Shown here: positions 23 to 10,906 of the stretch, piece by piece
Layout: every line of letters begins with the position of its first letter
Position numbering within the stretch: the stretch's first letter is position 1
Origin: Ensifer canadensis
Lineage (GTDB): Bacteria > Pseudomonadota > Alphaproteobacteria > Rhizobiales > Rhizobiaceae
Direction of reading: 5' to 3'
NCBI RefSeq assembly: GCF_017488845.2
Contig: NZ_CP083374.1
Location: 405,501 to 469,500, forward strand
Length of the DNA stretch: 64,000 nt
Made by a program: the position numbers and the translations under genes
Notes under the pieces: model-generated
What the model was told of the DNA's origin: nothing
What the model saw: only the letters and a program-made list of their open reading frames with translations
Database searches by the model: none

Positions 23-1552
23 ATGGGAACAGCAACAAGACTACCGCTCGTTGCGGCAACTTTATATCTAGGCGCTTCGGTCTTGGCCGTTCATCCGGCG
101 TCGGCTTCCGAACTCATCAGGATCGTATCCCCGTACAAGACCACGACGCTCGACCCGTTGCGCTCTGCCGCGGCGGGCAACATCGAGACATACGGCCAAC
201 TCTATGCGCGCCTTGTGCAGCGCAACACCGCAAACGGCGAACTTGAAGCAGGACTGGCTGAAAGCTGGGATATTTCGGAGGATGGCCGCACTTATACATT
301 TCGCTTGCGGGACGCAAAGTTCTCGAATGGCACAACCATCACGGCCGATGACGTCGTGTTCAGTCTGTCGCGCATCCACGATGACAAGCAGTCAGCCTAT
401 CCCGCCCCGCTCGGTGCAGTGGTGACCATCACGGCATCTGACCCCAAGACGGTGGTGATTAGACTGAAGTCTGCGTTCGCACCATTCCTGGGCAATCTCG
501 AAATTTGGAACATGGGGATTGTTTCCAAGGCTGACGTCGAGGCTCAGGGCGCGGAGAAGGCTTTCAGCAGCGCGCCAGTGACATCGGGCCCGTACGCCGT
601 CAAGGAATGGAAGCCGAATGATAAGCTCGTGCTGCAACCCAATGAGCACTATTGGCGCAGCGGCTATCCAAAATCGGACGCGATCGTCGAACTGAAAGAA
701 GTTGCCTCTCCTGAGACGCGAGCGGCGATGTTGAAGGCCGGCGAGGCTGAAGTGGTGCGCGCAGTACCGTGGGCGCAGATTGATGACCTGAAGGCAACGG
801 ACAGCATTGATATGCGGCTCGAACCTTCGACCACGATCTATATGACGTTGATGAACCACAAGCGCGAGCCGTTTTCAAACATGAAGGCAAGGCAGGCCGC
901 AGCCTATGCGATTGACAACAAAGCAATGGCAAAAGCGATCACGCGGGGTTACGCAGAACCCGCCAACACGACCCTGCCAGGCAGTATCGATTTCCACGAC
1001 AAGGACAACCCTGGCATCCCCTTTGATTCTGCGAAGGCAAAGCAGTTACTGATTGAGTCTGGAATGTCCGGACACGAGGTGAAGATCCTCGCCACATCGG
1101 GCGCGACCGAGCAGCAGATGGCGTTGCTGTTGCAGGCACAGTGGCAGGCCATCGGACTGAAGCCAGTCATTGTAAACGTTGACTCCGGCGCTTGGTGGGA
1201 TGCAACCGCCAAGGGCGACTACGATGCGGCGGCAAACTGGTGGTATAACGAGACGCCCGATCCCGATCTGGCTGTTCGCTGGGCAGTCTGCGGCACTTGC
1301 GGCTCCAACTCCTACAACACCTTCTACGCCAACCCGAAGGTCGACGAGTTGGTTGCGCAGGGCACCATGGAGACCGATCTCCAGAAGCGAGCGGAGATCT
1401 ATAAGGAGATCCAGAGGATCACGACCGAAGAGGTGTCTCAGATTCCTCTGTTCTATGCGCCGAACGCGGTCGCCTACTCGAAGAACCTCGAAGGCATCAA
1501 GCTTACCCCCTCCCTCCAGTGGACCCTCGAAGATACGACGGTCGCCAAGTAG
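23..1552 (+). CDS. ABC transporter substrate-binding protein, family 5 (dipeptide/oligopeptide type)
   Basis: Periplasmic solute receptor of a Dpp/Opp/Nik-type importer, 509 aa, the usual family length. Residues 1-29 form a Sec signal peptide (hydrophobic core, Ala-Ser-Ala before SE). The mature protein has the family 5 pattern: a DPLRS segment near residue 41, a GLAESWDISEDGRTYTF motif near 76-92 and a late QIPLFY motif. The ATG at 23 follows GGGAGG at 10-15. Two permeases and a fused double ATPase follow in the same direction, so this is the first gene of a complete importer. The nearby NylA-like and NylB-like hydrolases suggest a small amide or modified peptide as ligand; that is inference, since the family fold does not reveal the substrate. 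Confidence 0.93.
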   Translation: MGTATRLPLVAATLYLGASVLAVHPASASELIRIVSPYKTTTLDPLRSAAAGNIETYGQLYARLVQRNTANGELEAGLAESWDISEDGRTYTFRLRDAKFSNGTTITADDVVFSLSRIHDDKQSAYPAPLGAVVTITASDPKTVVIRLKSAFAPFLGNLEIWNMGIVSKADVEAQGAEKAFSSAPVTSGPYAVKEWKPNDKLVLQPNEHYWRSGYPKSDAIVELKEVASPETRAAMLKAGEAEVVRAVPWAQIDDLKATDSIDMRLEPSTTIYMTLMNHKREPFSNMKARQAAAYAIDNKAMAKAITRGYAEPANTTLPGSIDFHDKDNPGIPFDSAKAKQLLIESGMSGHEVKILATSGATEQQMALLLQAQWQAIGLKPVIVNVDSGAWWDATAKGDYDAAANWWYNETPDPDLAVRWAVCGTCGSNSYNTFYANPKVDELVAQGTMETDLQKRAEIYKEIQRITTEEVSQIPLFYAPNAVAYSKNLEGIKLTPSLQWTLEDTTVAK

Positions 1553-1616
1553 ATGAGATCAGGCGGGGCGGCGGCGCTTTGGTGTGCTGCCCTTCCCTCT
1601 CACCGGAGGAACCAGA

Positions 1617-2555
1617 TTGAACTTTCTGTCACTCATATCGCGGCGCATGCTGCAGTTGCTTGCCGTGATGGTCGGGATCAGCATCGTCACCTTCCTGCTG
1701 CTGCACCTCGCGCCCGGCGATCCCGCCCGTCTCCTTGCAGGCGACCGTGCGAGCCCCGAAACGATCGCGGCCATTCGTTCGCACTATGGTTTGGATCAGC
1801 CACTCTGGCGGCAGTACCTGACCTACACCATCAATCTACTTGGAGGTGACATCGGTCAATCATTGCGATTCCAGCGGCCGGTAAGCGAACTCATTTTGCA
1901 GTTCATGTGGCCAACCTTGTTCCTTACGGGTTACGTCGTGACACTGGCCGTTCCGCCAACAATTGCGTTGGCGATCGCCAGCGCCCGCGAACCAGGAGGT
2001 GCCGCCGACCAGACCATTCGGATCATCGGCATCATCGGCCTCACCATTCCGGTTTTCTGGCTGGGTATCATGATGTCGCGCTTCTTCGGTGTTTCGTTGG
2101 GATGGTTTCCTGTTTCAGGCTACGGCGAGACCTTTGCCGAGCATCTGCACCATTTGTTTCTGCCTGCGATGTCGACGGCGATCTGGCTTGTTCCGGTGCT
2201 GACCCAGAGTCTCCGCGCTGCGCTGATCGAAAAGACCACGGCCGACTTCGTAACCGCGGCGCGTGCTCAAGGTGCAAGCGAGCGGGAGATCTTCTGGAAA
2301 ACCATCCTGCCCAACGCCGTTCTTCCGACGCTCAACCTTCTGGGCGTTATGGTCGCCTTCATGATCGGCGGAGCCATCATCGTTGAAACGGTCTACGCTA
2401 TACCTGGCCTCGGCTCGCTGATGGTCGGCGCACTCCTCGGCCGTGACTACTATGTGGTGCAAGGGCTCACGCTCGTTTTTGCCTTCTCCACCGTATTCAT
2501 AACGCTAGCCGTCGATCTTGTTTCGGCTTTGATCGATCCCCGAATCCGGCTCTGA
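1617..2555 (+). CDS. ABC transporter permease, DppB type
   Basis: First inner-membrane subunit of the importer. From a TTG at 1617 it is 312 aa; this start is chosen because GGAGGA at 1605-1610 sits seven bases upstream, whereas the earlier in-frame start at 1584 has no such site. The N-terminus (RRMLQLLAVMVGISIVTFLL then HLAPGDPA) is the classic first membrane helix and GDPA loop of DppB. The EAA-type loop that contacts the ATPase is at TAARAQGASEREIFWKTILP. The end DLVSALIDPRIRL is also typical. About six membrane segments are visible. It is followed nine bases later by the partner permease. Confidence 0.93.
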   Translation: MNFLSLISRRMLQLLAVMVGISIVTFLLLHLAPGDPARLLAGDRASPETIAAIRSHYGLDQPLWRQYLTYTINLLGGDIGQSLRFQRPVSELILQFMWPTLFLTGYVVTLAVPPTIALAIASAREPGGAADQTIRIIGIIGLTIPVFWLGIMMSRFFGVSLGWFPVSGYGETFAEHLHHLFLPAMSTAIWLVPVLTQSLRAALIEKTTADFVTAARAQGASEREIFWKTILPNAVLPTLNLLGVMVAFMIGGAIIVETVYAIPGLGSLMVGALLGRDYYVVQGLTLVFAFSTVFITLAVDLVSALIDPRIRL

Positions 2556-2564
2556 GGTACCACA

Positions 2565-3416
2565 ATGTTGAAATCACCTGCTTTATCAGGGATCGTTGCA
2601 TTCACAACGCAGCTCTCACCGATGATGGTGCTGGCGATCGCCATTCTTGGCGGCTGGTTGTTCATCGCCTTGGCCGCTCCCCTGATCGCGCCATACGACC
2701 CGGACACGATCGACATCGCCAGTATGCTGACAGCGCCCAGTGCAGATCATTGGTTTGGAACCGATCAGGTAGGTCGCGACGTTTTCTCCCGTGTCATTTA
2801 CGCAGCGCGCGTGGACCTGTTTCTTTGTGTCATCGGCGTCCTGCCTCCGCTTGTAATCGGCACCATCGTCGGGCTCTTCAGCGGTTACTTCGGAGGCATG
2901 GTCGATAGCGTCTTCATGCGGGTCTATGACCTTACGGTCGCCTTTCCATTTTTTGTCTTGGTTCTGGCTATCGTCGGCGTGATCGGACCGGGCCTCGTCA
3001 ATTTTATCATCGCACTGACGATCGTCGGCTGGGTCAGCTACGCGCGTCTTGTCAGAGCTGAAGTCCTGACGGTTCGCGAAAGCGAATTCGTCCGCGCCGC
3101 CGAATGCCTCGGCTACCCGAGACGAGCGGTCCTTTTCCAACACGTTCTGCCGAACGCAATCGGGCCAGTCATTGCCTATGCCGTGAGCGACGCCGTACTT
3201 GTCATGCTGGCCGGGGCGAGCTTTGGCTATCTCGGCATGGGCGCTCAGCCGCCGCTCGCAGAATGGGGCGTCATCATTGCCGACGGACAGGCGTTCATCC
3301 AGCAAGCATGGTGGATCTGCCTCTTCCCAGGTCTCGCGGCAATTTCACTCGGACTGGGCTTCGCCTTTCTCGGAGACGGTCTCGGTCAATGGCAGCGTCG
3401 AGAGGTGGCCGCATGA
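2565..3416 (+). CDS. ABC transporter permease, DppC type
   Basis: Second membrane subunit, 283 aa. It has the DppC signature HWFGTDQVGRDVFSRVIYAA after the first membrane helix, and the coupling loop RAAECLGYPRRAVLFQHVLP. Five to six membrane segments are visible. Its stop codon overlaps the ATG of the ATPase gene (ATGA at 3413-3416), which indicates translational coupling. With the upstream DppB-type subunit it should form the heterodimeric channel. Confidence 0.93.
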   Translation: MLKSPALSGIVAFTTQLSPMMVLAIAILGGWLFIALAAPLIAPYDPDTIDIASMLTAPSADHWFGTDQVGRDVFSRVIYAARVDLFLCVIGVLPPLVIGTIVGLFSGYFGGMVDSVFMRVYDLTVAFPFFVLVLAIVGVIGPGLVNFIIALTIVGWVSYARLVRAEVLTVRESEFVRAAECLGYPRRAVLFQHVLPNAIGPVIAYAVSDAVLVMLAGASFGYLGMGAQPPLAEWGVIIADGQAFIQQAWWICLFPGLAAISLGLGFAFLGDGLGQWQRREVAA

Positions 3417-5068
3417 GCATGGCAAGCAAGCTCTCACCATTGATGGAGGTTGAAAACCTGTCGATCTCCTTCGGATCCCTCGAGACTGTGAAAGGAGTGT
3501 CGTTTAGTGTCAATGCTGGCGAAATCCTCGGCATCGTCGGGGAAAGCGGGTCTGGGAAGTCCCTCACGTGCCGCGCGCTCATGGGCATTCTTCCCAGAAC
3601 AGCAACAACAATGGGCGCTGTCCGGTTGGAGGGGCGAAGCCTCCTCGAACTTGGCGAGCCTGACTGGTGCTCGATCCGCGGCCGCGAACTCGGTATGATC
3701 TTCCAGAACCCCGCTTCACATCTCGACCCGCTCCGTCGCATCGGCAAGCAAGTCGCAGCACCGATGGTGCGGCATCTGGGAATATCGAAGCGCGAAGGAG
3801 AGCGGCGGACAATCCAACTGCTTGAGGATGTTGGCATCCAAGATGCGCACGCGCGATCGCGTTCTTATCCGCACGAATTCTCCGGCGGAATGAAACAGCG
3901 GGCCATGATCGCCGCTGCAATCGGCTGTGGACCGAAGCTACTGATCGCCGACGAGCCGACCACAGCACTAGACGTTACTGTCCAGGCGCGCATCCTTAAG
4001 CTTCTGCGCGATCTGAACCGAAATCGCGGCTTGTCGATCATCCTGATTTCTCATGATCTGGCCGCAATCGCCAGCACCTGCTCGCGCGTGATCGTCATGC
4101 GCAACGGAGAAATTGTTGAACAGGGCCCGACTGAGGAGATCATTAACCGCCCCAAAAGCAGCTACACACAGCTCCTGATCGCGTCGCAGCCAAACGGCTG
4201 GAGCAACACCGGTGATCCAGCGCCTGCATCGCGGTCCATCCCCCTGATCAGCGTTGACAAGCTTTCCGTGTCGTTCGTGCCGCGAGGCAATCTCCTAACC
4301 GGTTCGGCATCCAAACGAATCCCATTCCTTGCCCTGAACGAAGTCGATCTTCAGGTCAGCGCCGGAGAAACGGTGGGCATCGTCGGCGAAAGCGGATCGG
4401 GCAAGAGCACGCTCGCGCGGGCGATTGTACGGCAGAACAAGCCGAGCAATGGCGCGATCAGTTTCGATGGCAGCGATGTGCATGAGTTGAGCGGCGCGGA
4501 GCTCATGCGTTTCCAACGGCGCGTGCAAATGGTTTTCCAGAATCCGTACGACTCCCTCAACCCCCGAATGAGTGTCCGGGACGCCGTCGCCGAGCCGATA
4601 TGGAGGCACGGCCTGTCAGACCGACGCTCGGCTCTAATGCGCGCAGACGACCTTCTGGAGATGGTCGAGCTGCCGAGGGCGTTGCGAGAGCGTCGCCCCC
4701 GACAGCTATCTGGCGGCCAATGCCAGCGTGTCGGCTTGGCCAGGGCACTCTCGCTAGAGCCAGAATTGTTGATCGCAGACGAAATCACGTCCGCTTTGGA
4801 CGTGACAACACAGGCACAAATCCTGGAACTCCTGGGCAGACTTCAGCGCGAGCGGCAACTCGCATTGCTCTACATTTCCCACGATCTCGGCGTCGTCAAC
4901 AGCATTTGCCAACGGGTCTATGTCTTTAAGGGAGGCAGGATCGTTGAGAGCGGCCCGACACAACAGGTCCTGAACAAGCCACAAGATAGCTACACCCGCG
5001 AGCTTGTCGGTTCAGTCACCCACCTAAAGCCCCATGCAAGACAAGGAATGTGCCATGCGCCTCGATGA
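3413..5068 (+). CDS. Fused dual ABC ATPase (DppD-DppF type)
   Basis: A 551-aa protein carrying both ATPases of the importer in one chain. The start at 3413 overlaps the permease stop; the reading frame is open much further upstream but that part lies inside the permease gene. First domain: Walker A GESGSGKS at about 43-50, signature FSGGMKQR at 156-163, Walker [13 protein letters not shown] from 176. Second domain: GESGSGKS at about 325-332, signature LSGGQCQR at 432-439, then LLIADEITSALD. Two small oddities in the second domain are Cys in the signature (usually LSGGQRQR) and DEIT in place of DEPT after Walker B; the catalytic Glu is kept. The linker near 260-280 follows a short oligopeptide-type C-terminal segment. 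Confidence 0.93.
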   Translation: MSMASKLSPLMEVENLSISFGSLETVKGVSFSVNAGEILGIVGESGSGKSLTCRALMGILPRTATTMGAVRLEGRSLLELGEPDWCSIRGRELGMIFQNPASHLDPLRRIGKQVAAPMVRHLGISKREGERRTIQLLEDVGIQDAHARSRSYPHEFSGGMKQRAMIAAAIGCGPKLLIADEPTTALDVTVQARILKLLRDLNRNRGLSIILISHDLAAIASTCSRVIVMRNGEIVEQGPTEEIINRPKSSYTQLLIASQPNGWSNTGDPAPASRSIPLISVDKLSVSFVPRGNLLTGSASKRIPFLALNEVDLQVSAGETVGIVGESGSGKSTLARAIVRQNKPSNGAISFDGSDVHELSGAELMRFQRRVQMVFQNPYDSLNPRMSVRDAVAEPIWRHGLSDRRSALMRADDLLEMVELPRALRERRPRQLSGGQCQRVGLARALSLEPELLIADEITSALDVTTQAQILELLGRLQRERQLALLYISHDLGVVNSICQRVYVFKGGRIVESGPTQQVLNKPQDSYTRELVGSVTHLKPHARQGMCHAPR

Positions 5069-6515
5069 GTACGTCACCTACGATGGCGTCGGCCTTGCGC
5101 AACTCTTGGCAAAGGGTGACGTAAGCCCGAGAGATTTGGGGCGGTGCATTACGAGCTCGGTGGCGGCAGTGAACTCAAAGATCAATGCCGTCATAGAACT
5201 GTACTCCGACGCCTTGGATTGCCTTCCGGAGAAGCCGGGCCCGGGCCCGTTCTACGGGATCCCGACACTGACAAAGGACTTTCCGGTCGAGGCGGGGCGC
5301 CCTGCCGAGTTCGGCAGTCGGCTTGCTGAGGGAAACCGGGCGACGCAGGACGCCGTTTATTGGGAACGACTTAGAAACGCGGGCCTGGTCAATGTCGGCC
5401 GTACGACCAGCTCGGAGTTCGGCGTGGCCGCAACGACAGAAACGCTGCTCTACGGCAACACCTCTAATCCATGGGATCCCAAGCGCGGCGTCGCGGGGTC
5501 AAGCGGCGGTGCGGCCGCGGCAGTTGCAGCGGGCATTGTGCCATTCGCGCAGGGCAGCGACGGTGGCGGATCGATCCGCAATCCCGCCTCCTTCTGTGGA
5601 CTGATCGGGCTCAAACCCTCACGCGGGCGCATTACCGGATCTCCACGCGCCAACGCTCCGCTTCTGGGACTCGCCACGGCATTCATGTTGACAAGATCAA
5701 TTCGCGACACGGCCCTCCTGCTGGATCTATCCAATGGCCCTGACGCTGGGGATGGATACGAGATTTGCAGGCCGACCAGCAGCTATAGCGAGACAATTCA
5801 GCGTCCGCCGAAGGGCTTGCGCATCGCACTCTGCACAGACTCCTGGTCGGGGTTCCAATGTGATCCCGAAGTCGTGAACGCTGTAAGAATGACGGCGGGA
5901 CTGTTAGCTGCCCTTGGTCATCACGTCGTGGAAGCGCGGCCAGAATTCGACTACGCCGCGTTTCTCCATGCACAGAAAATCATCTGGGCAGCCGATAGCG
6001 CTTCGGGATTGTCGAAAATTGCAGAACACATGCAAAGGAAGCTCGGCCCTGAAACTGTTGGCACCACTGTCCTGGCCTTGCATCGCTACGGAACGACGCT
6101 TAGCGGCGCGGAACTGATCGGTGCGCTTGCCACTTATGACGATGTGACGCGCCAAATCGGCCGCTTCTTCAATCAATACGATCTCCTCTTGACGCCGACC
6201 AGCGCCATTCTGCCGGAGATCGTGGGGACATTTGACCCCGCGCGGCCGGAAATCGATGCGGACGATGTCTTCGCCGACCTCGAACCGAAGGAAACGTTTA
6301 CAGCTCTTTTCAATGGCACTGGTCAGCCAGCAATCTCGCTTCCGACGGGAACATCCTCAGGCGGAATCCCTATCGGCAGCCAGCTGGTGGCCCGGTTCGG
6401 GCGCGAGGACTTGCTGCTTGCTGTCGGACGCCAGCTCGAAGAAGGTCTGGATCGTAACAACGGCATATGGGGGCAAGGATTTCCCCCTGTCTTTGCAGGT
6501 AGCATGCGGGAGTGA
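5055..6515 (+). CDS. Amidase-signature hydrolase, NylA-like
   Basis: Amidase-signature enzyme, 486 aa from the ATG at 5055, which has AAGGA at 5043-5047; it overlaps the ATPase gene by 14 bases. The Ser-cisSer-Lys triad is visible as Lys74 (TLTKDF), Ser149/150 (AGSSGG) and Ser173 (GGSIRNPAS). From memory, the spacing is almost that of NylA, the 6-aminohexanoate cyclic dimer hydrolase (Lys72, Ser150, Ser174). The C-terminal block GQPAISLP, then PIGSQLVA, then GREDLLL also follows NylA. It should hydrolyse a carboxamide or lactam in the cytoplasm after uptake. Exact substrate unknown; GatA, AtzF or generic amidase functions cannot be excluded, but no GatC or allophanate partner is nearby. Confidence 0.9.
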   Translation: MRLDEYVTYDGVGLAQLLAKGDVSPRDLGRCITSSVAAVNSKINAVIELYSDALDCLPEKPGPGPFYGIPTLTKDFPVEAGRPAEFGSRLAEGNRATQDAVYWERLRNAGLVNVGRTTSSEFGVAATTETLLYGNTSNPWDPKRGVAGSSGGAAAAVAAGIVPFAQGSDGGGSIRNPASFCGLIGLKPSRGRITGSPRANAPLLGLATAFMLTRSIRDTALLLDLSNGPDAGDGYEICRPTSSYSETIQRPPKGLRIALCTDSWSGFQCDPEVVNAVRMTAGLLAALGHHVVEARPEFDYAAFLHAQKIIWAADSASGLSKIAEHMQRKLGPETVGTTVLALHRYGTTLSGAELIGALATYDDVTRQIGRFFNQYDLLLTPTSAILPEIVGTFDPARPEIDADDVFADLEPKETFTALFNGTGQPAISLPTGTSSGGIPIGSQLVARFGREDLLLAVGRQLEEGLDRNNGIWGQGFPPVFAGSMRE

Positions 6516-7441
6516 TGACAGTGACATTTGCCAATGACGAAAGCTCGAACGAGGCTGGTGCGGAGAAGATCGACATTGAAGCGATCCTCCGCGCGCGCAT
6601 GAACGAATTCTCTCCCTCGGAGCAGAGCCTCGCTGTCTACATGCTCGATAATGTTCAATTGTTGCCCTTTGAGACGGGCAGCACCATCGCGCGCGCAGTA
6701 GGCGTGAGCGAGATGACGGTGACGCGTTTCGTACGATCTCTTGGCTTTGAAAATCTTCGCGATCTGAAGAACCGGATGCGCAGCTCTGTTGTAGAGAGAG
6801 ACGGAGAAGTCGATGACTACATGGCGCGTTTCCAGGTCCGCAACAGCCGACAACAGGAACTCCAAGAGAGCTTGAAACTCGAGCTGGACGCGATCGTGAA
6901 GGCGTATGGGCTGACTGCGACTGAACAATGGGATGAGGCCGCAACGCTTCTTGCCAAGACCCGCCACGTCTATGTCGTCGGATTCCAGGCGTCCAAAGGT
7001 TTGGCGATGGATTTCTCGAGCCGTCTGCTATGGGCGCGCCCAAACGTTCTCTTCGCCGACAACGCTACAGGCACCTTTGGCGAAGTCCTCTCAAGCGACC
7101 CCAAACAGAGCGTGGTTGTACTGGTTGATACTGCGGCCTATGCCGCCCGAGGGATCAAGTTGGCTGACAAGCTCAAGGCATTCGGAATTCCACTCATCAT
7201 TGTGACCGACCGCTACAGTCATTGGGGCTTCACCTACACGCCGCTTGTCTTTGAGGGGCACACACACGTGAAAACCTTCTGGGACTCGACGGCGAGCCTT
7301 GGAGTGATCCTCAACCTCATGATCGACTCTGTGGCGGTGAAGCTCGGCCCCAAGGCGAAGCGCAATTTTGCGACAATGAGCGAGATGGGTCAGTTGTTCG
7401 GCGAGTTCGTCGGCGGATCGTACCTAAGGCGAAAAGACTAG
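6512..7441 (+). CDS. RpiR/MurR family transcriptional regulator
   Basis: A 309-aa regulator with an N-terminal RpiR helix-turn-helix (GSTIARAVGVSEMTVTRFVR, about residues 57-76) and a C-terminal SIS sugar-isomerase-like ligand domain (about 130-270, VVGFQASKGLAMDFSSRL). Translation may begin at GTG 6512, overlapping the amidase stop, or at ATG 6515. It sits between the amidase and the NylB-like hydrolase in the same direction, so it probably controls this operon. RpiR proteins usually sense phosphosugars or amino sugars, so the effector here is an open question. Confidence 0.92.
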   Translation: MMTVTFANDESSNEAGAEKIDIEAILRARMNEFSPSEQSLAVYMLDNVQLLPFETGSTIARAVGVSEMTVTRFVRSLGFENLRDLKNRMRSSVVERDGEVDDYMARFQVRNSRQQELQESLKLELDAIVKAYGLTATEQWDEAATLLAKTRHVYVVGFQASKGLAMDFSSRLLWARPNVLFADNATGTFGEVLSSDPKQSVVVLVDTAAYAARGIKLADKLKAFGIPLIIVTDRYSHWGFTYTPLVFEGHTHVKTFWDSTASLGVILNLMIDSVAVKLGPKAKRNFATMSEMGQLFGEFVGGSYLRRKD

Positions 7442-7471
7442 TATTATCAAGGAAATGCGAAAGAAGTACTG

Positions 7472-8662
7472 ATGACATCGAGCTCTACGCTAACCTTCCG
7501 TGATCCCAACAAACCCGGCGCACCCCTTGTCCCGCGGGCGGAGTGGGATCGCGCGCCGTGGAATCGCTGGACCTTCCAGAACGTGCGTTCGATCGTGCCC
7601 ACAGCACAGGTCTGGCGAGGTCAGGGTGGACCAACGGAAATGCTCAGTGCGCATCAGGATATTGATCGCGTTGAGTTCGAGCTGGACGGGACCCGCCGGA
7701 CGGTCGCTAACTTCATGCAAGCGCAGTATACCGACGCGTTTCTCGTTCTGCACCGCGGGAAAGTGGTCGCGGAGAGATATCTCAGCGGCATGACCGCCAG
7801 GACGCCGCACCTCTCGCAATCGGTGGCCAAATCCATTGTCGGCACCGTGGCAGGCATTCTTATCGAACGCGGTGAAATCGATCCGGCCGCTCCACTCACC
7901 CAGTATCTCCCCGAACTCGAAACCACAGCGTACCGGGGTGCTACCGTTCAGCATGTGCTGGATATGACCAGTGGCGTGGTATTCGACGAAACCTACACTG
8001 CCCACGATTCCCACATGGCGCAGTTGGATGTCGCAAGCGGTTGGAAAGACGGACATCAGCCAGACTGGCCGAAGAACGTTTGGGAATTGATCCTCACGCT
8101 AAAGGAGGCCGAATGCCCGCACGGGGCTTCGTTCCGCTATCGCTCTATCGAAACAGACGCACTCGCCTTCGTTCTTCAGCGGGTAAGCGGTCTGATGCTA
8201 TCTGAGCTCGTAAGCCGCGAATTGTGGTCGCGTATGGGGGCTGAGGAAGATGCCTATTTCACTGTGGATCCCGCAGGCTATGCGCTTGGTGACGGCGGTT
8301 TCAATGCCACGCTGCGTGACTACGGACGCTTCGCATTGTTGCACCTCGGGCAAGGCAACATTGGTGGTCGGCAGGTTGTTCCCTCAAGATGGATCGAAGA
8401 AACTCGCCACGGAAAATCGTACCCACTTGGAGACAACTATTGCCAGACCTTACCGCGCGGCAGTTATCATAACCAGTTTTGGATCGAGGACCAGAAAAGA
8501 CGCGCCTATATGGCACGCGGCGTGTTCGGTCAGTTGATCTATATCGACCCGGAAGGCGACTTCGCCGCTGTGATCCTCTCAAGTTGGCCACAGTTCCTCA
8601 GCACGGATCGGACGCGGACGGCACTAAGTGCGATACATGCCATCCGTGATGCCTTGAATTAA
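7472..8662 (+). CDS. Serine hydrolase of beta-lactamase fold, NylB-like (6-aminohexanoate-dimer hydrolase family)
   Basis: A 396-aa penicillin-recognising-fold hydrolase. The catalytic SxxK is SVAK at Ser117-Lys120 and the catalytic Tyr is Tyr223 in FRYRSIETDALAF; these match Ser112, Lys115 and Tyr215 of NylB as I remember them. Other NylB-like blocks are NRWTFQNVRSIVPTA (31-45), TDAFLVL (87-93) and VQHVLDM (159-165), well beyond what a generic class C beta-lactamase would share. No signal peptide is seen, so it should be cytoplasmic, like NylB. It would cleave a linear amide, perhaps the product of the NylA-like amidase. Esterase or D-aminopeptidase activity is also common in this fold. Confidence 0.88.
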   Translation: MTSSSTLTFRDPNKPGAPLVPRAEWDRAPWNRWTFQNVRSIVPTAQVWRGQGGPTEMLSAHQDIDRVEFELDGTRRTVANFMQAQYTDAFLVLHRGKVVAERYLSGMTARTPHLSQSVAKSIVGTVAGILIERGEIDPAAPLTQYLPELETTAYRGATVQHVLDMTSGVVFDETYTAHDSHMAQLDVASGWKDGHQPDWPKNVWELILTLKEAECPHGASFRYRSIETDALAFVLQRVSGLMLSELVSRELWSRMGAEEDAYFTVDPAGYALGDGGFNATLRDYGRFALLHLGQGNIGGRQVVPSRWIEETRHGKSYPLGDNYCQTLPRGSYHNQFWIEDQKRRAYMARGVFGQLIYIDPEGDFAAVILSSWPQFLSTDRTRTALSAIHAIRDALN

Positions 8663-9022
8663 GTGCTCTCGGACGAGGGCAGCCCCGGCCGCATGGTAAG
8701 CGTTCTGATGGCCTTGGTCATCGTGCCCTTCGCGACGGCAAGCACGACTGTAGCGGCGGCTTCTTGCGCCGATTGTGTGCAACTCCACGATCGGCATCTT
8801 CATCACATTGCCAGCAGTCTCCCCTCGGCCGACGACGTCATTCGTCCATCAATCACGAGGCTGACATCCACGATCGACCCGTCTGCTTTGCGGTAGGGCG
8901 GATTACAAACTTGGCTGCCACAGGGGTGGCATCGCTTTTTTTGAGCCACTGCGCCTTGAAGCGCATTTGAGCGAAACGCATTATTGTTGGTGGGAGCGAT
9001 CGCGTCTCGAGGAGTGGTGCAA
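8663..9022 (+). other. Intergenic region without an intact gene
   Basis: About 360 bases between the serine hydrolase and the patatin gene. Open frames here are short and lack ribosome binding sites. The minus strand shows weak PAS-like remnants (see the entry at 8803-8960). The last part should hold the promoter of the patatin gene; AGGAG at 9010-9014 is its ribosome binding site. Confidence 0.5.
8803..8960 (-). pseudogene. Possible remnant of a PAS-domain protein
   Basis: On the minus strand one frame reads YRKADGSIVDVSLVIDGRMT followed by a GRLLAM stretch and a stop, which resembles the second half of a PAS domain. A neighbouring frame just upstream reads RFKAQWLKKSDATPVAAKF. Joining the two needs a frameshift. 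The match is short and by eye only, so this is a weak call. Confidence 0.2.
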
Positions 9023-10906
9023 ATGTCTTCCGTCGAGTCCCTTGCGGCGAGATTATTGTCGGCGACATTGATGTTCGATCGGGCGTCTTTGGCGGCACTC
9101 GAGGCTTTGGCTGCCGAATCCGACAGGCGGATATTGCGACGTGGGGAGGCTCTGGTTCGCGAAGGTGAGCCATCGGATCGGTTCTTTATCGTGCTATCGG
9201 GCCGCTTTACGGTGCACAAGGAAGACTATGCTGGCGCGGTCGCCGAGATCGGCCAGGGCGAGCTCGTCGGTGAGGTCGGTTTTTTTGCAGGGCTGCCCCG
9301 CATGGCGACCGTGCTGGCTGCCCGCGATTCGATCGTCCTTGAAATCCGCGGCAGCCAGTTCGAGAAGGCGGCCAAAGCTTTGCCAAGCCTGCGGCAGGCG
9401 GTCACCACGTTTCTCGCGCGCCGGTTCGCCATGCAGTCTCCGAATTCGTCGCGCCCAAAGGAACCTGCCAAGATCCGAACGCTTGCGATCATTCCAGCTG
9501 GCGGAAGTCGCATTTCACCAGTTTTCATCCGTCACCTGCGAGCGGCGTTCGCGGCGGGAATGCGCGCTGAGTTCCTTGCCCGGCCTGACATTGAAGCGCG
9601 GTTCGCCGGTCGTCCGATCGACGATCAGTCGGTTCTCAACTGGTTGAACGAACTCGAGGCCAAGACCGAGATCATCGTCTATGTCGCCGATGAAGAGCCC
9701 AGTGAATGGACACGGGTCTGCATTCGCCAGGCGGATAGCGTCCTGCTGCTCGCCGACGCGTCCTGCTCGCCCCGCCTGAACCGGTCCGAGGAATTGGCGC
9801 TATCGGTTCATTCACCCTCGACCGCGCGGCTCATCCTCATTCACGACAAACGCTCGGCAACGGTTTCTGGTACGGCGAAATGGCTAAACGAGCGTCCTCA
9901 TGTTGGCCATCATCACCATGTTGCACTGGGGGACGGGTCTGACATCCAACGCCTGGTTCGATTCTTTTCCGGCAAGGCAAGGGGCTTCGTAGCGGCGGGG
10001 GGCGGGTCCCTCGGCTGTACGCATCTTGGTGTTTGCAAGGCCTTCGTCGAGGCGGGCGCTTGCTTCGACTATCTCGGTGGGACAAGTTCCGGAGCGGCAA
10101 TGATGGCCGGTTTCGCCAGAGGGCTGAATGCCGATGAGATAGACCAAGGCACGCACAACATATTCATCAAGGGCAGAGCGTTTCGCCGTCCCACCCTGCC
10201 GCATTTCGCTCTCCTGGATCACAAGGTGTTCGATCAGGCCCTTCAGGCCGAGTACGGCGACGTTCTGATTGAGGATCTGTGGCTTCCGTTCTTTGCGCTT
10301 TCGACCAATCTCAGCACTCGTCAGCCTCATGTTCATCGCCGCGGAAAGCTCTGGCAGGCGGTTCGCGCGTCAGGCTCGATCCCCGGTGTCCTGCCGCCAT
10401 TCTTTACGGGTGACGGCGATATGCTCGTGGATGGCGCGATCATGAACAATCTGCCGCTCGAACAGATGAAGGAACTCAAGACCGGGCCCAATGTCGTCGC
10501 GAGCTTGGAGTCAGGTGGTCCACAGAAATACCACATCGACTATGACCGCATCCCCGGAGCTTCCGAGTTGGCGCTCGCCTGGCTAAACCCTTTCGGTCGC
10601 GCCAGCTTGCCAAAGGTGCCCAGCATGATTCAGGTGATTGCTGCGAGCATGCTGGCACACCGGCCGCAGGACATTGCCATTGGCCCAGAGGATGTCTTGG
10701 TTTGTCCGCCGGGTTCGAGCGCGGTGAGCTTCATGGATTGGAGCCGGCATTCCGAATTGTTTGCCGGGGCCCACGATTGGGCCATCCGATGGATCGACGA
10801 ACGCCTGCGCCAGAACGACCCGGCACTCCACGCGGTGCTGGGCACCTCAGCTCAGAAGGGCCCGATCCAAGTCCGTGGCGACAGCATGGACAAGTCCACC
10901 ACGTAG
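9023..10906 (+). CDS. Patatin-like phospholipase with N-terminal cyclic-nucleotide-binding domain
   Basis: A 627-aa cytoplasmic or membrane-associated lipid hydrolase of the NTE/RssA type. The start at 9023 is preferred over in-frame TTG and GTG codons upstream because AGGAG (9010-9014) fits it. Residues 1-125 form a cNMP-binding fold (GEPSDRFFIVLSGRF, GELVGEVGFFAGLPRMATV). A middle domain follows (about 145-320). The patatin domain begins near 322 with the oxyanion GGGSLG, then the nucleophile GTSSGA near 352 and the Asp of VDGAIMNN near 470, giving the Ser-Asp dyad. Nucleotide binding may control lipase activity. It stands alone, with regions lacking intact genes on both sides. Confidence 0.92.
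   Translation: MSSVESLAARLLSATLMFDRASLAALEALAAESDRRILRRGEALVREGEPSDRFFIVLSGRFTVHKEDYAGAVAEIGQGELVGEVGFFAGLPRMATVLAARDSIVLEIRGSQFEKAAKALPSLRQAVTTFLARRFAMQSPNSSRPKEPAKIRTLAIIPAGGSRISPVFIRHLRAAFAAGMRAEFLARPDIEARFAGRPIDDQSVLNWLNELEAKTEIIVYVADEEPSEWTRVCIRQADSVLLLADASCSPRLNRSEELALSVHSPSTARLILIHDKRSATVSGTAKWLNERPHVGHHHHVALGDGSDIQRLVRFFSGKARGFVAAGGGSLGCTHLGVCKAFVEAGACFDYLGGTSSGAAMMAGFARGLNADEIDQGTHNIFIKGRAFRRPTLPHFALLDHKVFDQALQAEYGDVLIEDLWLPFFALSTNLSTRQPHVHRRGKLWQAVRASGSIPGVLPPFFTGDGDMLVDGAIMNNLPLEQMKELKTGPNVVASLESGGPQKYHIDYDRIPGASELALAWLNPFGRASLPKVPSMIQVIAASMLAHRPQDIAIGPEDVLVCPPGSSAVSFMDWSRHSELFAGAHDWAIRWIDERLRQNDPALHAVLGTSAQKGPIQVRGDSMDKSTT

Follow-up and report, generated by a model that had tools for sequence, protein, structure and literature searches.

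A recurring but patchy rhizobial operon joins NylA- and NylB-like hydrolases to a peptide-type importer and an RpiR regulator

What the nylon hydrolases did before there was nylon is an old question, and it is raised again by a gene cluster of Ensifer canadensis. In the nylon pathway, the cyclic dimer is converted by NylA to the linear dimer and the latter by NylB to 6-aminohexanoate (PMC5408104, PMC6061476; papers are cited here, by PMC number, for the excerpts drawn upon). We analyzed a stretch of 64,000 nucleotides (contig NZ_CP083374.1, positions 405,501 to 469,500; hereafter the window), the first 8.7 kb of which, on contig 5 of the 8.09-Mb genome, hold relatives of both enzymes. Here, at positions 23-8662, seven genes on the same strand, with overlaps or short gaps between them, form one tightly packed operon encoding, in order, a family-5 substrate-binding protein, two permeases, a fused double ATPase, an amidase, an RpiR-family regulator, and a beta-lactamase-fold hydrolase. 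This gene content and packing bear out a preliminary description, made from the sequence alone, that had placed amidase, importer, RpiR regulator, and hydrolase in one operon. Our favored reading, held tentatively, is that the operon is a self-regulated scavenging unit that would import, and then cut inside the cell, a small natural amide with a free amine.

The hydrolase gene (7472..8662, + strand; PF00144) closes the operon, and the structure model of its product has a pLDDT of 93.3. Ser117, Lys120, and Tyr223 correspond to the catalytic centre Ser112-Lys115-Tyr215 of NylB, as had been proposed. NylB (PDB 2zm0 and others) is also the best solved match by sequence, and EstB, compared outside the trees, lies far behind it by both sequence and fold, so that the EstB-type esterase identity envisaged earlier as a refutation did not materialize. 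Identity to NylB is 32-37%, depending on the alignment, and PIB-1 (8rlj) and the putative hydrolase 4gb7 are 28-31% identical to the window protein. The equivalents of NylB Tyr170, which we take to be a substrate-site residue, and of Asp181 are Tyr175 and Asp186, and both positions are kept in all 19 type-A rows of the alignment. Among other proteobacterial rows Tyr170 is kept in 17 of 19 and Asp181 in 15 of 19; among NylB-type rows the figures are 8/8 and 7/8, the sole Gly181 and the sole Ala112 both occurring in P0246, a protein of the nylon strain that appears to be a variant engineered for crystal work. Asp181 is described as a substrate-site residue of NylB (PMC7019077).

In a tree of the NylB family (93 rows), ten NylB-type proteins, P0246 included, formed a clade of their own (100/100) without the window protein, which fell in a 20-row clade (97/87) within a 59-row proteobacterial clade (96/88). 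Because this tree is unrooted and has some long branches, we claim from it only that the window protein lies outside NylB's own clade. NylB's best 120 matches, taken after scoring about 8,000 candidates that shared most words with it, are 71-100% identical to NylB, and those of them with a named source come from actinobacteria or bear the former name, Flavobacterium, of the nylon strain. Judged by its sequence, then, the hydrolase is a member of the NylB family but not an ortholog of NylB. A further NylB-like gene, 37% identical, is present on contig 4 of the same genome (near 247150), in a 20-kb stretch that also has agmatinase-like and aldehyde dehydrogenase-like matches.

Similar relations hold for the amidase (5055..6515, + strand; PF01425; an ATG at 5034 is also possible), the gene of which is placed, as a further difference from NylA, between the ATPase and RpiR genes. 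Lys74, Ser149, and Ser173 align with residues 72, 150, and 174 of NylA (PDB 3a2p/3a2q), in agreement with the amidase-signature triad proposed earlier, and NylA is the best solved match by fold and, well ahead of GatA and at 37% identity (BLAST), by sequence. The GatA model TIGR00132 gives the window amidase 184.9 bits against a cut-off of 481.1, whereas the genome's own GatA reaches 568. In a 43-row tree, from which five type-A amidases (L022, L024, L025, L064, and L067, the last with its match in two pieces) were omitted to limit the size of the set, the window amidase, its relatives, NylA, a Mycobacterium plasmid amidase, and one paralog from the same genome form a 22-row clade (100/100); the genome's GatA, its other amidases, and the amidases of polyamine-type loci (see below) fall outside it. 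A second tree (27 rows, with the amidases of loci L180, L146, and L147) agrees, with a 16-row clade at 100/100. The GatA-like placement that had been named as a possible refutation is thus not what was found, and the trees support assignment of the amidase to the NylA side of the amidase-signature family. Within the joint clade the window amidases and NylA appear as sister groups on long branches, so the amidase is, on this evidence, not a NylA ortholog. Of the likeness to NylA and NylB that had been proposed, family membership and closest solved relatives therefore stand; orthology does not, and substrate residues differ in both enzymes. A second amidase/beta-lactamase-fold pair lies on contig 1 of the same genome (about 2124700-2128100; L121:9869-13273); in the tree its amidase groups on the NylA side, and the partner protein, the N-terminus of which resembles a signal by eye, has PIB-1 as its closest solved relative.

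The four genes that open the operon (all + strand) encode a substrate-binding protein (23..1552; PF00496, SBP_bac_5, 305 bits), permease B (1617..2555; PF00528, PF19300; start uncertain, a GTG at 1584 being also possible), permease C (2565..3416; PF00528), and a fused ATPase with two ABC_tran stretches and oligo_HPY (3413..5068), the start of which overlaps the stop of permease C (ATGA). With this composition, the system belongs to the dipeptide/oligopeptide-type ABC importers. The closest solved relative of the binding protein is AapF (7kz8, 282 bits); a literature search on AapF and 8RLJ found nothing relevant among the papers listed. In the Trp-x-x-acid stretch of the binding protein the acidic place is Glu in 33 of 33 rows of the window type, some genomes being included twice. 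No NCBIfam equivalog model reaches its cut-off with the binding protein or the permeases, and several cut-offs, of staphylopine, nickel, and dipeptide models, are passed by the ATPase; hence the ligand cannot be named from the importer. By eye, the N-terminus of the binding protein resembles an export signal, and neither the amidase nor the hydrolase has an obvious one. Because the importer and two enzymes without obvious export signals share one packed operon, import followed by intracellular hydrolysis appears the probable direction of flux.

On the favored reading, the binding protein and the ABC importer would take the amide into the cell, where the NylA-like amidase and the NylB-like hydrolase would cleave amide bonds in the cytoplasm. 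Acylated diamines and polyamines are candidate substrates, as are short amides of omega- or beta-amino acids and related dimers, linear or cyclic. The RpiR protein (6512..7441, + strand; HTH_6, PF01418, and SIS, PF01380) may sense a ligand and control the operon, and the freed amino acid would be degraded by enzymes encoded elsewhere, probably by a class-III aminotransferase first. The two enzymes would serve as separable tools for the imported compound rather than as a fixed pair. Simple promoter and terminator scans of the locus gave weak matches only. A motif shared among 31 regions upstream of the binding-protein gene was rejected as an operator: it is the start-codon region of some orthologs, is not palindromic, and is absent from the window.

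Separability is apparent from how the operon recurs. A scan with a hydrolase pattern, one genome per species, returned at least 53 loci (the exact pattern was needed, and some contigs are short or cut). Importer, amidase, RpiR, and hydrolase genes stand in the window order at 12 of them (one truncated at the end of its contig, another with the amidase match split in two); importer, RpiR, and hydrolase occur without the amidase at 3, and importer and hydrolase without amidase or RpiR at 5, and a close window-type importer was not found at the remaining 33. Of 297 Rhizobiaceae genomes, counting that of the window, 40 have a member of the hydrolase clade (E up to 1e-115) and 7 the amidase; some genomes are common to this sample and the 53 loci, which makes the two sets of counts non-independent. 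The amidase and hydrolase genes are about 1 kb apart in six of the seven, and in the seventh the amidase lies on a short contig that ends beside the RpiR gene. Searches for the amidase in 397 order-level genomes found one besides the window genome (G688, which has the hydrolase and looks like the genome of locus L024), and in 385 class-level genomes two (G725 and G758), each with importer, amidase, and RpiR but, over the stretch read, no hydrolase. The same importer and RpiR gene thus occur with both enzymes, with the hydrolase only, or with the amidase only.

The operon is present in diverse rhizobia, one of them from a root nodule, with amidases about 69-74% identical to that of the window, and importer-amidase-RpiR sets reach down to 54% identity. 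Plasmids carry it as well, in S. meliloti SM11 (all seven genes on pSmeSM11c) and in R. leguminosarum, and it is present in strain WSM1689 of R. leguminosarum bv. trifolii. As none of 15 same-genus genomes sampled has a hydrolase above 36% identity (E up to 1e-60), the operon is accessory within the genus. Four S. meliloti plasmid matches (H115, H116, H117, and H119) begin only at residue 147 or 169 of the hydrolase and so span its C-terminal part alone, which suggests decayed copies.

To place the operon among its relatives, we compared the neighborhoods of 46 Rhizobiaceae loci of the hydrolase clade besides that of the window (about 20 kb each, less at contig ends). A polyamine-type importer lies within 3 kb at 22 of the 46 (leaving aside L129, a window-type operon with a stray match), and a PF00850-type deacetylase, detected by tblastn with two seed proteins and not by the Pfam model, within 10 kb at 21. 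Amidohydro_3 is found within 8 kb at 20 loci, a second NylB-family gene within 3 kb at 18, and an amidase-signature gene within 3.5 kb at 13; window-type importers occur at 9 and RpiR at 7. A binomial value for deacetylase enrichment (1e-32) is not relied on, because the loci are related and the background is one genome (3 PF00850 genes in 8.09 Mb). Among named examples, a Paracoccaceae plasmid carries, as annotated, an importer, an amidase-type gene, acetylpolyamine aminohydrolase, nylB', an aminotransferase, and an aldehyde dehydrogenase, and an annotated agmatinase gene lies within 8 kb (Shinella HZN7) or 2 kb (Pseudomonas MPC6) of NylB-like plasmid genes; a NylB-like gene on an Arthrobacter plasmid has no such neighbors as annotated. 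In three Mesorhizobium loci (L031, L033, and L066), where crude gene calling missed genes, the importer-hydrolase operon is followed by genes for a polyamine-type binding protein, a class-III aminotransferase, a 3-hydroxyacyl-CoA dehydrogenase, a beta-keto acid cleavage enzyme, and a second NylB-family protein; these clusters may be carnitine-style or amino-acid degradation modules.

The regulator links the two kinds of locus. RpiR orthologs of at least 57% identity are present in 11 of the 297 Rhizobiaceae genomes, the window's included, and a NylA-like or NylB-like gene adjoins the ortholog in 10 of them; the eleventh (L181) lies near aldehyde dehydrogenase and aminotransferase genes. By contrast, at the 11 loci read around more distant RpiR relatives (32-38%), all with peptide-type importer matches, no NylA-like or NylB-like gene was found save a single distant amidase at 5-6 kb. 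At L180, one of the 10, a polyamine-type importer and a class-III aminotransferase accompany an RpiR gene (58%) and another, diverged NylA-like/NylB-like pair; the best solved match of the amidase there is NylA (269 bits) and that of the hydrolase NylB (116 bits). The strongest evidence that the window operon and the amine-linked loci handle related compounds is this RpiR link, which rests on few loci. Overall, gene context favors, if indirectly, amine-bearing amides among the substrates proposed earlier.

Several observations weigh against this reading. In the amidase, Trp stands at the position of NylA Cys316, a proposed cyclic-dimer binding residue (PMC7019077). In the hydrolase, NylB Asn266, described as important for dimer hydrolysis (PMC7019077), is replaced by Asp274 (Asp is found there in 17 of 19 type-A rows), Thr327 by His333, and Ile343 by Arg349; from the alignment, the resemblance appears to extend to the catalytic machinery and some of the substrate site but not to the rest of the pocket. 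Being related, the 46 loci do not give independent counts, and those with polyamine-type importers hold more distant members of the hydrolase clade (about 49-58% identity). A deacetylase match was found at none of the nine loci with a window-type importer, and neither an aminotransferase nor a deacetylase was found adjoining the window-type operon. The L180 aminotransferase is closest to glutamate-semialdehyde aminomutase-type proteins and therefore does not demonstrate an omega-amino product. A family name, whether of an importer or of a deacetylase, is no proof of the substrate, and the ATPase passes nickel and staphylopine importer cut-offs, with a score inflated by its two domains. At L018 and L021, moreover, close orthologs of the hydrolase (70-71%) stand without the operon. 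Finally, G725 and G758 carry hydrolase relatives elsewhere (51-52% and 45% at best), so their amidase-only operons were rejected as evidence that one of the two steps can be dispensed with.

The operon might instead serve the uptake and hydrolysis of ordinary or modified alpha-peptides, cyclic dipeptides, or peptide amides, which we regard as unlikely. The importer is of the dipeptide/oligopeptide type, and the more distant relatives of the RpiR protein have peptide-type importer matches at all 11 loci read. Some peptidases, too, belong to the Beta-lactamase Pfam family. Moreover, the cyclic diamide that NylA opens has a shape like that of a cyclic dipeptide (PMC5408104). Set against these points, related hydrolases stand more often beside polyamine-type than beside window-type importers (22 versus 9 of the 46 loci), and the NylB residues tied to an amine-bearing substrate are retained. 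Quite improbable, in our estimate, is an operon that destroys lactams, beta-lactams, or acylated signals such as acyl-homoserine lactones entering the cell: a dedicated importer suits feeding better than defense, acyl-homoserine lactones are not inactivated by NylA itself (PMC3676327), and class C beta-lactamase models give the hydrolase at most 25.2 bits against cut-offs of 680 and more.

That the operon is a genuine nylon-oligomer pathway, taken up recently to deal with industrial waste, is hardly credible. The pairing of NylA-like and NylB-like enzymes with an Opp-type importer does recall the surroundings of nylB in Arthrobacter and Agromyces (PMC7019077), and three genes of the PF03576 (NylC/DmpA) family are present in the genome, all on contigs other than the window's. 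Neither enzyme, however, is an ortholog of its nylon counterpart, Cys316 and Asn266 are not kept, and the operon occurs in diverse rhizobia, at identities (amidases about 69-74%, sets to 54%) too diverse for recent spread.

The preliminary description had set the operon apart from the known nylon genes by its importer and RpiR regulator, a contrast that was overstated, since opp, smpB, nylB, and nylC are named in one region of Arthrobacter and Agromyces (PMC7019077). An oligopeptide-type importer near a NylB gene is thus already known; no RpiR gene is mentioned for that region in the excerpt (PMC7019077). Also known are homologs of NylA and NylB in Pseudomonas (PMC7019077, PMC6061476), and an aminotransferase, NylD1, is described in the nylon strain (PMC6061476). 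The gene logic of the rhizobial operon is similar to that of the nylon pathway, although its enzymes are separable within the operon. Among the open-licence PMC papers listed by our searches, judged by title and opening of the abstract, we found none treating this rhizobial operon, and the recurring amidase/RpiR/hydrolase arrangement, its modularity, and its deacetylase and polyamine-type neighbors were not found there.

The amine-bearing-amide reading would bear on the origin of the nylon enzymes. Residues surrounding the NylB substrate are kept in rhizobial relatives that have their own importers and regulators, several with deacetylases and aminotransferases, which makes the natural substrate class directly testable; these relatives could also supply new enzymes for amide chemistry. 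A broader proposal, which we consider somewhat unlikely, is that proteobacterial NylA- and NylB-like enzymes are standard tools of a widespread natural catabolism of amine-bearing amides (acylated polyamines and amides of omega- or beta-amino acids), reassembled with varied amidases and importers and partly under one RpiR lineage, and that the nylon hydrolases would be actinobacterial offshoots of enzymes already able to recognize a free omega-amine.

The operon is flanked by genes of other kinds. Just upstream, on the opposite strand, is a separate peptide-type importer operon with a helix-turn-helix/cupin regulator (L006:5418-11740), and 0.3 kb downstream, at 8984-10906, a gene encodes a fused protein with cyclic-nucleotide-binding, NTE P-loop-like, and patatin phospholipase parts.

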